Below, piece by piece: positions 22,083 through 26,066 of a DNA stretch of 64,000 nt. Positions within the stretch are counted from its first letter, which is position 1. Each line of letters opens with the position of its first letter. Location: positions 1 through 64,000 of the forward strand of contig NZ_AMSF01000095.1 in assembly GCF_000334915.1 (NCBI RefSeq), read 5' to 3'. The notes beneath the pieces are model-generated. The model saw only the letters and a list, made by a program, of their open reading frames with translations. It had not been told where the DNA came from and ran no database searches. Origin of the DNA: Dyella ginsengisoli LA-4 (GTDB taxonomy: Bacteria; Pseudomonadota; Gammaproteobacteria; Xanthomonadales; Rhodanobacteraceae). Made by a program: the position numbers and the translations under genes.

Positions 22083-24761
22083 TCAGCGCATGATTGCCGA
22101 AGCGTCCTGCTTCTGCTTCAACGCAGCGCACAGCAGCGTGGATTCGGAGGTCTGCGCCAGGCCGCGTGCCGCGCCCGGCGCCTGGTCCGCCCGATCCTTG
22201 AAGAACGCCTGCAGGCGGTCCGCCTCGGCCTGCGAGCAGCCGCCGCCGCCCATCAGGCTGGGCAGGCGGCCACCGGCGAAGCTGCCGGTGCGGGCGAGGA
22301 TCTGGTCGTAGTGCGCCACCGACCAGGTCCACATCGCATCGCGCTGCGCGGGGGTGTCGCGACCGCCGCGCAGCAGCGCCGCCATCTCGCCCACCTTCAC
22401 CGCCTTGCTCAGGGCGAAGTCGCGGATCCGCTCGACCAGCGCCGGATCCTCCACGCTGGCCAGGCCGGCCAGGATCGCGTTGCGGGTGGCCGGATCGCTG
22501 GTCTTCGGCAACGTGTCGATCAGCGCATCGACCACCGGCTTGCCGTGCTCCTGCGCGGCCACGCCCAGCGCCACGCCGAGCAGGTCCGGATCGGCCGCGG
22601 CGTAGTCGAGGCTGCCGTCGGGCTTGCGCTTCATCACCGCGTCGCCCTGCTTGAGCAGTTCGGCACGCACTTCCGGCAGCTTCACGTCCATGCCGAGGAA
22701 GTCGGCCAGGGTGCTGCGCATCAGCGAGTCGCCATCAGCCTCGCCGGCCTTGCGCTGGTAGCCCAGCGCCTCGAGCCGCGGCAGGTAGGCGTCCTTCGCC
22801 CAGGCGGCGAGCTTCGTGCGCTGGGCGTCGGTGTCGGCGAGGTGGCGCCAGATCCAGCCGAAGGTGTTCAGCGGCGCGGTAGCCACCTCGTCGGTCTTCG
22901 AGCCGGCCAGCGGCTTGAGCGCCGCCAGCGCATCGGCCGCATCGATGTCGCCGTGGCGGAAGCTGGCGCCCACCGCGTCGGCGTAGGCCAGCTGCTCGGT
23001 GTCGGCCAGCGAACCGATCTGCTTGCCCAGTGCGGCGAGGCCCGCCTTGGTCATGCCGAAGCGGTAGTAGCCCTGCGCATCGGCGTTGGGCATCACCCAG
23101 GTCGGCGTGCTGGCGCCGGCCAGCACCATCGAGCCCTCGGCCTTGTCGAGCATCTCGCAGCTCACCTTGCTGCCGCCCGGCACGCCGTAGCGCACGCACA
23201 CCGGCACGCCCCACACGCGCTGGCTGTCGCCGGTGGAACCAACCGGCAGGTAGCGGCTCTGGCTCAGGTGCAGGATGGTCTGGCCGTCCTTCTGCTCCAG
23301 CTTCGTCTGGACATACGGCACGCCGGACTGGTTGAGGAAGCTCTTGAACGCTTCCTTGAACGCCTCGCCCTTGTCGGCGGCGTGCGCGATCGAGTCGACC
23401 AGGTCGTCGGCGGTAGCGTTGCCGAACTTGTGGTCCTGGATGTAGGCGCGCATGCCCTTCTGGAACACCGCCGGCGTCACGTAGTTCTCGAACATGCCGA
23501 GCACCGCCGCACCCTTCTGGTAGGTGATGCCGTCGAACGCGGTCATGATGTCGCCGTTGCCGGTGATCGGCTGGCGGATCTTGCGCGCGCTGACCAGGCT
23601 GTCGTTGTTCATCGCACCCTGCGCACCGCGGATGCGGTCCAGGTCGGCGCGGTATTCCGGATGCACCGCCATGGTGACCTTCTGCTGCATCCAGGTGGCG
23701 AAGGCCTCGTTGAGCCAGATGTCATTCCACCATTTGGTGGTGACGGTGTCGCCGGTCCACTGGTGGGCCAGCTCGTGCGCGGTCACGTTGAACGAGCCGC
23801 GCACGTACCGCGCCGGGGAATCGGGATCGAGCAGCAGCAGCCAGTCGCGGAAGGTGACCAGGCCCGGGTTCTCCATCGCGCCGGCTGCGAAGTCGGGCGC
23901 GGCGAGCAGGTCGAGCTTGCCGAACGGGTAGCCGAAGCCGTAGTAGTTCTCCAGCGTGTGGATGATGCTCGGCGTCTCGCTGAGCACGTGCTGCATGCGG
24001 TGGCCCTCGCCCTTGGCGGCCACGCCGCGCAGCTTCAGCGGCTCGCTGCGGTACGCGTCGGGGGAGATGTCCGGGCCGGCCACGATGTCCCACGGACCGA
24101 CGCCGAAGGCGACCAGGTAGGTCGGCAGCGGGCGGGTCTTCGCGAAGGTGATCGTCTTCCAGCCCTTGCCGGCCGGCTTCTCGCTCACTTCGCCGGTGTT
24201 GGCCACCGCCTTCTCGCTGTCGGGAATGGTCAGGGTGAGGTCGAACGGAGTCTTGTAGTCCGGCTGGTCGAAACCGGGGAAGGCGTAGCGCGCGCTGATC
24301 GGCTCCATCTGCGTCATCGCGTACGGTTCGCCCTCGTGGCTGACCTTGTACAGGCCCTGCAGCTGCAGGTTCAGCGGCGCGGTGTAGTCGAACGCGAGGG
24401 TGATCTCCTGCGGCTTCACGGTGTGGCCGAAGTCGACGCGGGCCACACCCTCGTGCGGCGCGGCCGCCACGTACTTCGCCATCGTGGTCTTGCCGGCGGC
24501 GTCGGTCAGGCGGACCTTCGACACGGTGAGGTCGGCGCCGTGCAGCCAGACGTGGTCGGAGGCCTGGGTCAGCTTCACCTTGATCACGGTGTGGCCGGAG
24601 AAGTCCTTCTGGTGCGGATCGACCTTGAAGGCGAGCTGGTACGACTGCGGCACCGCCCAGGTGGGCAGCAGGCCATGCGGCACGGCGTCGCCGCCGGCAG
24701 CGAACGCGGCGCTGCAACTGGCGGCGAGGGCGGTGAACAGGAGCGGGCGGAGGAGGCGCAT
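22083..24761 (-). CDS. M1 family metallo-aminopeptidase, exported
   Basis: An 892-residue zinc aminopeptidase of family M1 that removes N-terminal residues from peptides. The signal peptide is MRLLRPLLFTALAASCSAAFA. GAMENPGL near residue 294 is the substrate-anchoring exopeptidase motif. HELAHQW at 329 gives the HExxH zinc site, with the third ligand in NEAF near Glu352. A C-terminal alpha-solenoid of the ERAP1-like type (residues 560-892) includes ATRNAILAGLASVEDP. It acts in the periplasm or outside. Its own promoter must lie between 24762 and the terminator at 24854, unless that terminator acts as an attenuator. Confidence 0.94.
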   Translation of the reverse strand: MRLLRPLLFTALAASCSAAFAAGGDAVPHGLLPTWAVPQSYQLAFKVDPHQKDFSGHTVIKVKLTQASDHVWLHGADLTVSKVRLTDAAGKTTMAKYVAAAPHEGVARVDFGHTVKPQEITLAFDYTAPLNLQLQGLYKVSHEGEPYAMTQMEPISARYAFPGFDQPDYKTPFDLTLTIPDSEKAVANTGEVSEKPAGKGWKTITFAKTRPLPTYLVAFGVGPWDIVAGPDISPDAYRSEPLKLRGVAAKGEGHRMQHVLSETPSIIHTLENYYGFGYPFGKLDLLAAPDFAAGAMENPGLVTFRDWLLLLDPDSPARYVRGSFNVTAHELAHQWTGDTVTTKWWNDIWLNEAFATWMQQKVTMAVHPEYRADLDRIRGAQGAMNNDSLVSARKIRQPITGNGDIMTAFDGITYQKGAAVLGMFENYVTPAVFQKGMRAYIQDHKFGNATADDLVDSIAHAADKGEAFKEAFKSFLNQSGVPYVQTKLEQKDGQTILHLSQSRYLPVGSTGDSQRVWGVPVCVRYGVPGGSKVSCEMLDKAEGSMVLAGASTPTWVMPNADAQGYYRFGMTKAGLAALGKQIGSLADTEQLAYADAVGASFRHGDIDAADALAALKPLAGSKTDEVATAPLNTFGWIWRHLADTDAQRTKLAAWAKDAYLPRLEALGYQRKAGEADGDSLMRSTLADFLGMDVKLPEVRAELLKQGDAVMKRKPDGSLDYAAADPDLLGVALGVAAQEHGKPVVDALIDTLPKTSDPATRNAILAGLASVEDPALVERIRDFALSKAVKVGEMAALLRGGRDTPAQRDAMWTWSVAHYDQILARTGSFAGGRLPSLMGGGGCSQAEADRLQAFFKDRADQAPGAARGLAQTSESTLLCAALKQKQDASAIMR

Positions 24762-24853
24762 GGGGCGTGTCCGGTGGCAAGTGAACCCCGAACGCTAGGC
24801 AGCCCATGACCTATGACACAGTGCCAGAAGGCACCCCCGCACCGGCACGACGC

Positions 24854-24894
24854 AAAAAAATGCCGGTGAGCGGGAACGGGACCCGGTCACCGGC
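24854..24894 (-). terminator. Orphan Rho-independent terminator upstream of the aminopeptidase gene
   Basis: On the minus strand an 8-bp perfect stem (24887-24894 with 24862-24869), extended inward by a CGGG/CCCG helix, is followed by seven T (24860-24854). It lies about 93 bases before the aminopeptidase start, with no coding sequence upstream of it. It therefore ends either a small RNA or a leader transcript. Confidence 0.8.
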
Positions 24895-25008
24895 GGGAGC
24901 GACCGTGGCGCCGGTCGGGAGGGGGGAACCGGCGCCGTGGGGGTGCTCGCGTGGCCGCGCGGTTTGCGGGGGGAAGACGGACCGGGGGAGGTCCGCCGCG
25001 GGGCCACG
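24854..25008 (-). ncRNA. Candidate small RNA with C-rich loops, divergent from oxyR
   Basis: No protein gene fills 24762-25097 (336 bases). Its minus strand folds into successive hairpins. CGUGGCC-c-CGCGG (25008-24996) pairs with 24962-24950, enclosing GGACC-UCCCCC-GGUCC (24994-24979). GGCGCCGGU (24936-24928) pairs with 24915-24907 around the loop UCCCCCCUCCCG. A terminator (24894-24862) followed by seven U ends it. Single-stranded parts are nearly all C and U, hence complementary to GGAGG ribosome sites. A promoter-like pair lies at 25015-25043, with an OxyR-like dyad directly upstream. The architecture recalls OxyS by position and Xanthomonas sX13 by its C-rich loops; homology is untested. 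It could alternatively be an attenuated leader of the aminopeptidase gene. Confidence 0.55.
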
Positions 25009-25014
25009 AAGCGC

Positions 25015-25043
25015 AAGATACGCCGCCCCATTGCATCGAACAA
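25015..25043 (-). promoter_or_regulatory. Sigma-70-like promoter candidate for the small RNA
   Basis: On the minus strand TTGTTC (25043-25038), 17 bases and TATCTT (25020-25015) form an imperfect -35/-10 pair, predicting a start near 25008. The first OxyR-like dyad ends one base upstream of the -35, the position from which OxyR activates polymerase in Escherichia coli. Confidence 0.45.
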
Positions 25044-25080
25044 ATTGATTGTTACCATCAATGTCATAGCCTGAAGCTAT
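25044..25080. promoter_or_regulatory. Two tandem dyads, OxyR operator candidate
   Basis: ATTGAT-N7-ATCAAT (25044-25062) and ATAGC-N5-GCTAT (25066-25080) lie side by side with centres 20 bases apart. The second contains ATAG-N7-CTAT, the OxyR half-unit. Two dimer sites on one DNA face are what an OxyR tetramer binds. The site ends 5 bases before the oxyR ribosome site (AGGAG 25086-25090), so it would also allow autorepression. Confidence 0.6.
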
Positions 25081-25097
25081 TCAACAGGAGATGGGCC

Positions 25098-26066
25098 ATG
25101 AACCTGCGCGACCTGCAATACCTCGTGGCGCTGGCCGAGCATCGCCACTTCGGTCGCGCCGCGGAGGCGTGCTTCGTCAGCCAACCCACGCTGTCCACCC
25201 AGATCCGGAAGCTGGAGGACGAACTCGGCGTGTCGCTGGTCGAGCGCACGCCCCGCAAGGTGCTGCTGACCGAGGTCGGCAGCGAGATCGCCACCCGCGC
25301 CCGCGAGGTGCTCAACGAAGTCGATCAGATCCGTGCGGTGGCCCGACGCACCCGCGATCCCGAGTCAGGCACGGTGCGACTGGGCATCTTCCCCACCCTC
25401 GGCCCCTACCTGCTGCCACATGCGGTGCCGATGGTGCGCGAAGCTTTTCCCAAGCTCGAGCTGCTGCTGGTGGAGGAGAAGACCGAAGTGATCCTGCGCC
25501 TGCTGCGCGAGGGGAAGCTCGACGTCGGCATCCTCGCCCTGCCGCTGCACGAGGACAGCCTGCACGTGGAGTTCCTGTTCGAGGAGCCGTTCGTGCTGGC
25601 GGTGCCGCAATCGCATCCGCTGGCGCGCCGCCACGGCCAGCTGAAGCTGGCGGACCTGTCCAACGAGAGCCTGCTTCTGCTCGAGGACGGCCACTGCCTG
25701 CGCGACCAGGCGCTGGAGGTCTGCCACCTGGCCGGCGCCGGCGAGCGCAACGGCTTCCGCGCTACCAGCCTGGAGACGCTGCGGCAGATGGTCTCGGCCG
25801 AGGTCGGCATCACCCTGCTGCCGGTGCTCGCAGTGAAACCGCCGGTGGCCCAGTCGGGAAACCTGCGGTTGATCGAGTTCAAGGCGCCGCCGCCCAGCCG
25901 CCGCCTCGCCATGGTGTGGCGCAAGAGCTCGGCGATGGATGGTTTCCTCACCCGCCTGGCCGAGGTCTTCAAGCGGTTGCCGGCGGATCTGCTCGATACT
26001 CGCACGGCGGTCATGCCGTCCGCCGTCGCGACGACGAGGGCGCCCGCACCACGTTCCGCGGCATGA
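25098..26066 (+). CDS. oxyR: Hydrogen-peroxide-sensing LysR-type regulator
   Basis: A 322-residue LysR regulator. The N-terminal helix-turn-helix contains HFGRAAEACFVSQPTLSTQIRKLEDELGVSL. The sensing domain carries LLEDGHCLRDQALEVC with Cys200 and Cys209, matching the peroxide-reactive pair Cys199 and Cys208 of Escherichia coli OxyR. That makes the assignment firm. Oxidation joins these cysteines and changes DNA contacts, activating antioxidant genes. The ATG at 25098 follows AGGAG; an out-of-frame ATG sits at 25091. Tandem operator-like dyads and a divergent RNA candidate lie upstream. No ahpC or katG is in the window. Confidence 0.95.
   Translation: MNLRDLQYLVALAEHRHFGRAAEACFVSQPTLSTQIRKLEDELGVSLVERTPRKVLLTEVGSEIATRAREVLNEVDQIRAVARRTRDPESGTVRLGIFPTLGPYLLPHAVPMVREAFPKLELLLVEEKTEVILRLLREGKLDVGILALPLHEDSLHVEFLFEEPFVLAVPQSHPLARRHGQLKLADLSNESLLLLEDGHCLRDQALEVCHLAGAGERNGFRATSLETLRQMVSAEVGITLLPVLAVKPPVAQSGNLRLIEFKAPPPSRRLAMVWRKSSAMDGFLTRLAEVFKRLPADLLDTRTAVMPSAVATTRAPAPRSAA

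Follow-up and report, generated by a model that had tools for sequence, protein, structure and literature searches.

The gap of 336 bases that separates oxyR from the gene of an M1 family aminopeptidase (24762–25097 of the window, i.e., the whole stretch of 64,000 nucleotides that was analysed) raises the question of what is transcribed there, divergently from oxyR. The initial annotation gave this interval correctly and proposed an OxyR-controlled small RNA (sRNA) with C-rich loops resembling the anti-Shine-Dalgarno sequence. This is still the best-supported reading, given the conserved OxyR site and promoter, the covarying stems and the CCCUCCC loops of relatives. We propose that 24854–25008 is a stand-alone sRNA driven by OxyR, derived from the 3′ untranslated region (3′UTR) of ahpC, whose C-rich loops pair with G-rich ribosome sites in trans, and assign this reading a probability of roughly 0.7.

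Layout, predicted promoter and predicted fold of the locus

The features of the locus are given below, where R1 is a covariance model of the element made from relatives.

22083–24761, minus strand: M1 family aminopeptidase, the downstream neighbour (PF01433, 211.6 bits)
24819–24833, minus strand: palindromic motif TGCCTTCTGGCACTG in the peptidase's own upstream region, outside the sRNA, conserved across family loci
24854–25008, minus strand: predicted sRNA transcript of about 155 nt, its start placed about 7 nt after the −10 (fold z score; stretch present in all four genomes of the genus)
24854–24860, minus strand: U7 tract, with one A between it and the terminator hairpin (sequence, fold)
24862–24894, minus strand: terminator hairpin (fold, R1; its counterpart covaries in 60 relatives)
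24897–24948, minus strand: stem-loop B, loop CCCCCCUCCC (fold; found jointly with the terminator by R1)
24950–25008, minus strand: stem-loop A, enclosing a hairpin at 24995–24978 with loop UCCCCC (fold; alignment to stem-loop 1 of relatives)
24963–24977, minus strand: single-stranded C-rich stretch UCUUCCCCCCGCAAA inside A (fold)
25015–25020, minus strand: −10 TATCTT, 17 nt from the −35, kept in all states of the locus except that with neither ahpC nor the element, where it is decayed
25038–25043, minus strand: −35 TTGTTC, directly abutting the operator, kept in loci with a transcription unit and decayed in those without
25044–25080, minus strand: putative OxyR-type operator of two dyads, ATAGCTTCAGGCTAT, 7 nt, ATGGTAACAATCAAT, common to oxyR and the sRNA promoter (matrix score)
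25098–26066, plus strand: oxyR (NCBIfam NF008361 OxyR equivalog, 335 bits, cut-off 329)

An OxyR-like dyad had been described as abutting the −35, and the operator at 25080–25044 does adjoin it directly. It scores 56.5 bits, the next best non-overlapping place in the 64 kb scoring −0.9, with a matrix built from 96 oxyR-upstream sites of other genera with at least 11/20 consensus matches, 'neither' loci and the duplicates L070 and L076 included. The −35/−10-like pair is likewise present as TTGTTC (25043–25038), 17 nt and TATCTT (25020–25015). A generic scan for sigma-70 promoters and terminators was negative for both at the thresholds used. The promoter hexamers match at 8 of 12 positions where 9 are required, and an internal loop interrupts the terminator stem; both assignments therefore rest on comparison with relatives.

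On the minus strand, 25008–24854 folds with a minimum free energy of −83.8 kcal/mol against −59.1 ± 3.75 for shuffled sequences (z −6.59; none of 200 shuffles as low), and a 172-nt version gives z −5.13. The fold confirms the three stem structures, one enclosing another hairpin, and the seven-U terminator of the initial annotation. As for the loops that it read as almost pure C/U, UCCCCC (inner hairpin of A), UCUUCCCCCCGCAAA (A) and CCCCCCUCCC (B) are indeed unpaired, while UCCCCCCUCCCG was drawn too long and takes in letters of closing pairs. By the fold, the unpaired runs of hairpin A are UCCCCC and UCUUCCCCCC, and the core CCUCC is present in loop B.

The element in relatives

By DNA search, the stretch 24854–25008 was found in all four genomes of the window's genus. 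Seven of 60 relatives matched in this way, i.e., the four of the genus and three others with short matches only, two of which (L005 and L006) correspond to the promoter region of oxyR. In L008, a 34-base match at another place in the window's genome, R1 scored no match above 8.2 bits. R1 was built from 16 aligned element sequences, all from other genera, and oxyR-upstream regions were taken from 40 genomes. At E ≤ 0.01 it matched in 101 of 233 family genomes, many of these matches being weak. Genome searches with strict filters missed the window's genus; with filters off on the short loci L001–L004, the window element was the top match at 28.9–33.5 bits (next best 8.7), and default filters on L001 gave 32.8 bits.

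A covariance search in related genomes had been suggested as a check, and it found the element in all four loci of the genus (R1) and stems that covary across 60 relatives. The element and its covariation are computational observations. The 60 oxyR-linked matches, of which 59 are distinct, all come from outside the window's genus. In them, 96.6% of 1272 cells are paired and 16 of the 22 pairs have changed on both sides, with 135 such cells against 26.0 in shuffled and 3–17 in slid controls. The alignment was fitted to the model, which favours structure; the slid controls nevertheless pair just 33–50% of cells. The loop of stem-loop 1 in these relatives is 57% C, and the terminator loop is also C-rich (45%). 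CCCC occurs in every one of the 60 stem-loop 1 loops, CCUCC in 54 (mean 17.6 after per-loop shuffling, maximum 27 in 200) and CCCUCCC in 51 (5.0 expected from shuffling the same loops, maximum 11).

R1 places stem-loop 1 on B of the window, whereas A is the domain similar in sequence. In alignments with the stem-loop 1 of four relatives, A was equalled or beaten by 0, 1, 9 and 0 of 500 shuffles and B by 93, 210, 89 and 13. Judged by sequence alignment, stem-loop A is the probable counterpart of stem-loop 1, and stem-loop B is probably an extra hairpin of the window's genus. Sequence gives no support to B as the counterpart.

Several R1 matches lie away from oxyR (L101–L106, L108–L111 and L113 in the family, L175–L180 outside it) and were not counted as members. 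They fall at the 3′ ends of phasin genes and of a peroxidase gene, in a spacer that we take to resemble ftsZ-lpxC, or in places left unassigned. Outside the family, R1 at E ≤ 1e-4 matched in 6 of 299 genomes sampled from the order, and tblastn found no oxyR, ahpC, ahpD or peptidase in these six stretches (L175–L180). A stem-loop with a C-rich loop followed by a terminator stands behind phasin-like genes in L101–L105, L108, L176 and L177, which span two genera of the family and two other families. Phasin_2 is above its cut-off in L108, L176 and L177 and falls just short of it in L101 (24.1 bits, cut-off 24.9), while L102–L105 were assigned by resemblance. These may represent another RNA built on the same plan. 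L180 (G378, contig C46, 12973–13045), from a different family in the order, scores 31.4 bits with R1 directly behind a peroxidase gene (PF00141, 147 bits), presumably katG, and its loop contains CCUCC.

Loss of ahpC and ahpD

In many loci the gene between the oxyR promoter and the element encodes an AhpC-TSA protein (PF00578). The 102 sampled loci comprise 36 with ahpC and the element, 31 with the element only, 24 with neither and 11 with ahpC but without the element; genomes were partly chosen for hits or an informative state, and these counts are not frequencies. L131, L139 and L140 were assigned to the first state at 27.2, 21.8 and 19.8 bits because visual inspection showed a C-rich stem-loop; L164 and L166 (19.7 and 22.8 bits), in which no C-rich loop is visible, were left out of it, and L128 (20.9 bits) was not counted there. 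In L164 and L166, of genus g18, a different and longer structured region without C-rich loops follows ahpC, as if the element had been replaced.

All 36 loci with both have the order ahpC, element, ahpD in a unit divergent from oxyR behind an OxyR-type promoter. The distance from the last codon of AhpC to the element is 13–53 nt in 33 loci, and 73, 86 and 165 nt in the three that scored weakly; the one AhpD that was typed is TIGR00777 (199.5 bits, cut-off 191.95), and the peptidase lies beyond ahpD in 23 of the 36 within the fetched stretch. From this arrangement, the ancestral-looking order is oxyR, facing away from ahpC, the element and ahpD. Both genes are missing from the window's genus and from parts of five others, where the promoter and element remain.

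On a midpoint-rooted tree of one gene, oxyR, from which L070 and L076 were removed because they duplicate L100 and L099, the element-only state needs nine changes, at least six of them forced by well-supported branches; these are gains and losses of the state label, not conversions. The two large element-only groups (g1/g18; g15, g19, g20 and g21) fall into separate regions of the tree, both well supported and both containing loci that carry ahpC and the element, so that at least two conversions from ahpC with element to element only are likely. A less simple alternative is that ahpC and ahpD were regained around the element.

The promoter differs between these states. The promoter-proximal half-site (of 15 positions) averages 14.4 in element-only loci, 12.6 with ahpC and element (lowest 6), 12.2 with ahpC but no element and 8.25 in 'neither' loci; its consensus was defined by inspection of g1/g18 sequences ahead of the count, a choice that benefits element-only loci, and the loci compared are moreover related by descent, and p values overstate the differences. 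In the same order, the −35 scores 4.45, 5.1, 5.1 and 2.46 of 6 and the −10 scores 4.55, 4.7, 5.3 and 2.25 of 6. The dyad nearer oxyR differs little between states, at 8.1–8.7 of 10 (8.7 in element-only, 8.4 in 'neither' loci). The promoter has thus been kept where the peroxidase frame is gone yet the element is present. Promoter conservation and the pattern of ahpC and ahpD loss are, as above, results of computation.

The lost type of AhpC was also sought elsewhere in the genomes. Close relatives (74–100%) of the oxyR-linked AhpC occur in 6 of 22 genomes tested; in the other 16, where it is missing next to oxyR, the type was not found anywhere else either. All 16 carry a 37–42% identical peroxiredoxin elsewhere, as does one of the six, which has both. 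The oxyR-linked type of AhpD was found in two of 16 tested genomes, the two bearing ahpC, and nowhere in the other 14. One of these other peroxiredoxins, L205, was typed and proved to be a classical AhpC, with 344.6 bits for TIGR03137 (cut-off 272), a model on which the oxyR-linked type reaches 153.5. An OxyR-type site of 27.0–44.4 bits accompanies such a gene at all eight loci examined (one from the genome with both), and R1 found no match above 11.5 bits in eight loci of this other AhpC-family gene. At G000 contig C46 (L183) and L204–L210 there is an apparent peroxidase swap, from the oxyR-linked AhpC to another peroxiredoxin with an OxyR site.

We read the aminopeptidase gene as a transcription unit apart from the sRNA, and TGCCTTCTGGCACTG is probably its operator. 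Among peptidase-bearing loci, at least 13 of the 15 positions of this motif match in all 23 loci with ahpC and the element, in 30/30 element-only loci, in 14/15 'neither' loci and in two of the five with ahpC but without the element. It is conserved in most sampled loci of the family, irrespective of what stands further upstream.

Proposed function and alternative explanations

Under peroxide, oxidised OxyR on 25044–25080, which may also be used for oxyR autoregulation, would switch on the abutting promoter and yield a structured RNA of about 155 nt that ends with the terminator at 24854. This RNA would have originated as the 3′UTR of ahpC, the spacer before ahpD, in a unit of these two genes under OxyR control; both frames would have been lost, and the retained promoter and 3′ element joined. 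Its unpaired C-rich stretches (CCUCC, loop B) would mimic the 16S anti-Shine-Dalgarno, of which CCUCC is the core (PMC6288834), and pair with G-rich ribosome binding sites. Such pairing, most likely in trans, would lower the translation of target mRNAs under peroxide stress. We infer expression, OxyR dependence in the window's organism, pairing in trans and the existence of targets, as well as the peroxide induction and the block on translation of many mRNAs put forward by the initial annotation.

As a guide to targets, a search with one pattern, GGGAGGGGG at 1–12 nt from an ATG, gave 12, 19, 6 and 5 places in the four genomes of the genus against 1, 2, 2 and 1 for a reversed-pattern control, although Shine-Dalgarno sites are G-rich anyway. 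Among the 20 of 42 places inspected, the only clear gene with a loop-fitting site in all four genomes encodes a LysM-domain protein (PF01476, 40.4 bits; L192, L197, L198 and L203) with the ribosome site GGGGGAGGGGG. This gene is a candidate target, offered as a lead only. For a second place common to the four genomes, three of them were read and have no clear frame in common there.

Other explanations of the locus have to be weighed against this reading. The element might be a mere strong terminator and protective hairpin of the ahpC mRNA, so that loss of ahpC left an OxyR-driven transcript without function in trans, and in 36 of the 102 loci it does occupy the site expected of an ahpC 3′ stabiliser or terminator. 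Against this, loci left with the element but without a peroxidase frame have preserved the −35, the −10 and the promoter-side half of the OxyR site, all of which are decayed where the element is lost, and the loop motif CCCUCCC, which a terminator does not need, stands far above what the composition of the loops predicts; we consider the explanation unlikely. Titration of a protein or another RNA in place of pairing with ribosome sites is quite improbable in our view: stable, repeated C-rich loops could be protein sites, but their motif is similar to CCUCC, the anti-Shine-Dalgarno core of 16S rRNA, and in sX13 the C-rich loops act on G-rich motifs of mRNAs (PMC3771888).

An attenuator leader of the aminopeptidase gene, the alternative first entertained, would explain why the element lies upstream of and co-directional with the peptidase in 30 of 31 element-only loci. 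It is disfavoured by the position of the element after ahpC and before ahpD in 36 of the 102 loci, with ahpD intervening in the 23 that have the peptidase in the fetched stretch, and by a peptidase motif independent of the element: the U7 terminator comes before this separate conserved motif, which also occurs in 14 of the 15 peptidase-bearing 'neither' loci. We find this alternative hardly credible. The same holds for a small protein encoded at 24795–25067 (90 aa, minus strand) or 24806–25048 (plus strand), both of which exist as open reading frames. The ATG of the minus-strand frame is upstream of the predicted transcript start, 13 of 23 element-only transcripts (four of the genus, 19 others) contain no ATG and the remaining frames are short and differ from one another, and the stems covary by compensating changes.

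Known RNAs and the possible rise of a riboregulator

Searches of 24750–25100 against Rfam, with gathering and relaxed thresholds (E up to 10), returned no family, including OxyS (which we take to be RF00035), RF02232 and ar14. The suggested comparison with the sX13 and OxyS models has therefore been made, with neither matching at E up to 10, and as far as these models tell the window RNA would be neither OxyS nor sX13. On 12 loci of relatives the one match was ar14 in L030. Genus g4 (L147 2634–2717, L148, L030 and L031) has a two-hairpin C-rich RNA upstream of oxyR, with a weak match to ar14 in L147/L030 (34.7 bits, gathering 58.8) and preceded in L030 and L031 by CTTGAA ... CCCCATCT, seen by eye, which we take to be a sigma-32-like promoter.

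OxyS has an OxyR site beside its −35, and the window element shares this feature as well as a divergent position 5′ of oxyR. It differs in lying far outside the enterobacteria, in its C-rich loops and in having no Rfam match. Krieger et al. in 2022 reportedly proposed that OxyS, a peroxide-responding sRNA, originated from a peroxidase mRNA, an origin that would resemble the pattern at the window locus. sRNAs derived from 3′UTRs form a general class; relatives bearing ahpC conform to it with an element and terminator at the mRNA 3′ end, but at the window the parent frames are gone and the sRNA uses the parent's promoter. As for the range of OxyS, PMC5793797 lists 603 potential homologues, all 5′ of oxyR and in the enterobacterial clade.

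The C-rich loops of sX13 in Xanthomonas repress mRNAs with G-rich motifs near translation starts without a need for Hfq, and its homologues are reported always to lie downstream of polA (both from PMC3771888). The window RNA and its relatives also carry C-rich loops on stable stems, but the window RNA is not behind polA, which in this genome is on another contig, C53. There, L181 2723–2839 (G000 contig C53) holds an sX13-like RNA with C-rich loops downstream of polA (RF02232, 31 bits, gathering 50), which fits the reported polA-linked position of sX13 and suggests that the family is Rhodanobacteraceae-like, within the order of Xanthomonas. In the alpha-r14 or cuckoo RNAs, the anti-Shine-Dalgarno CCUCCUCCC is unpaired and kept while the stems vary, according to PMC10746234, much as the CCUCC core is unpaired in the loops of 54 of 60 relatives and in window loop B. 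The CcsR RNAs of alphaproteobacteria have a role in stress defence, and CcsR1–4 are co-transcribed with ccaF1 from an RpoHI/RpoHII promoter (PMC10253847). Unlike these two groups, the window RNA is a single gene behind an OxyR site and has no Rfam match.

In the open-licence literature on OxyR sRNAs of the group, UTR-derived sRNAs of ahpC, OxyS-like sRNAs and C-rich stress sRNAs, the element is undescribed among the matches listed (for one topic the best 20 of 565), and the two themes of an OxyR-driven sRNA and anti-Shine-Dalgarno-like C-rich loops were not found joined in these matches.

We think it reasonably probable that a peroxide riboregulator of the OxyS type evolved outside the enterobacteria along the route reportedly put forward for OxyS, by loss of the peroxidase frames from an OxyR-driven mRNA, with the promoter and the 3′ element kept, and that this happened at least twice, perhaps several times, in one family. 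The window element seems to have arisen independently of Escherichia coli OxyS in the same position. The origin of new regulatory RNAs is an open question, and this family seems to show the steps from an mRNA 3′ end to a free-standing gene. If this is true, living relatives display the states before, after and lost side by side, at the very locus where OxyS sits in a distant group, and the repeated, parallel evolution of stress riboregulators would become directly testable.
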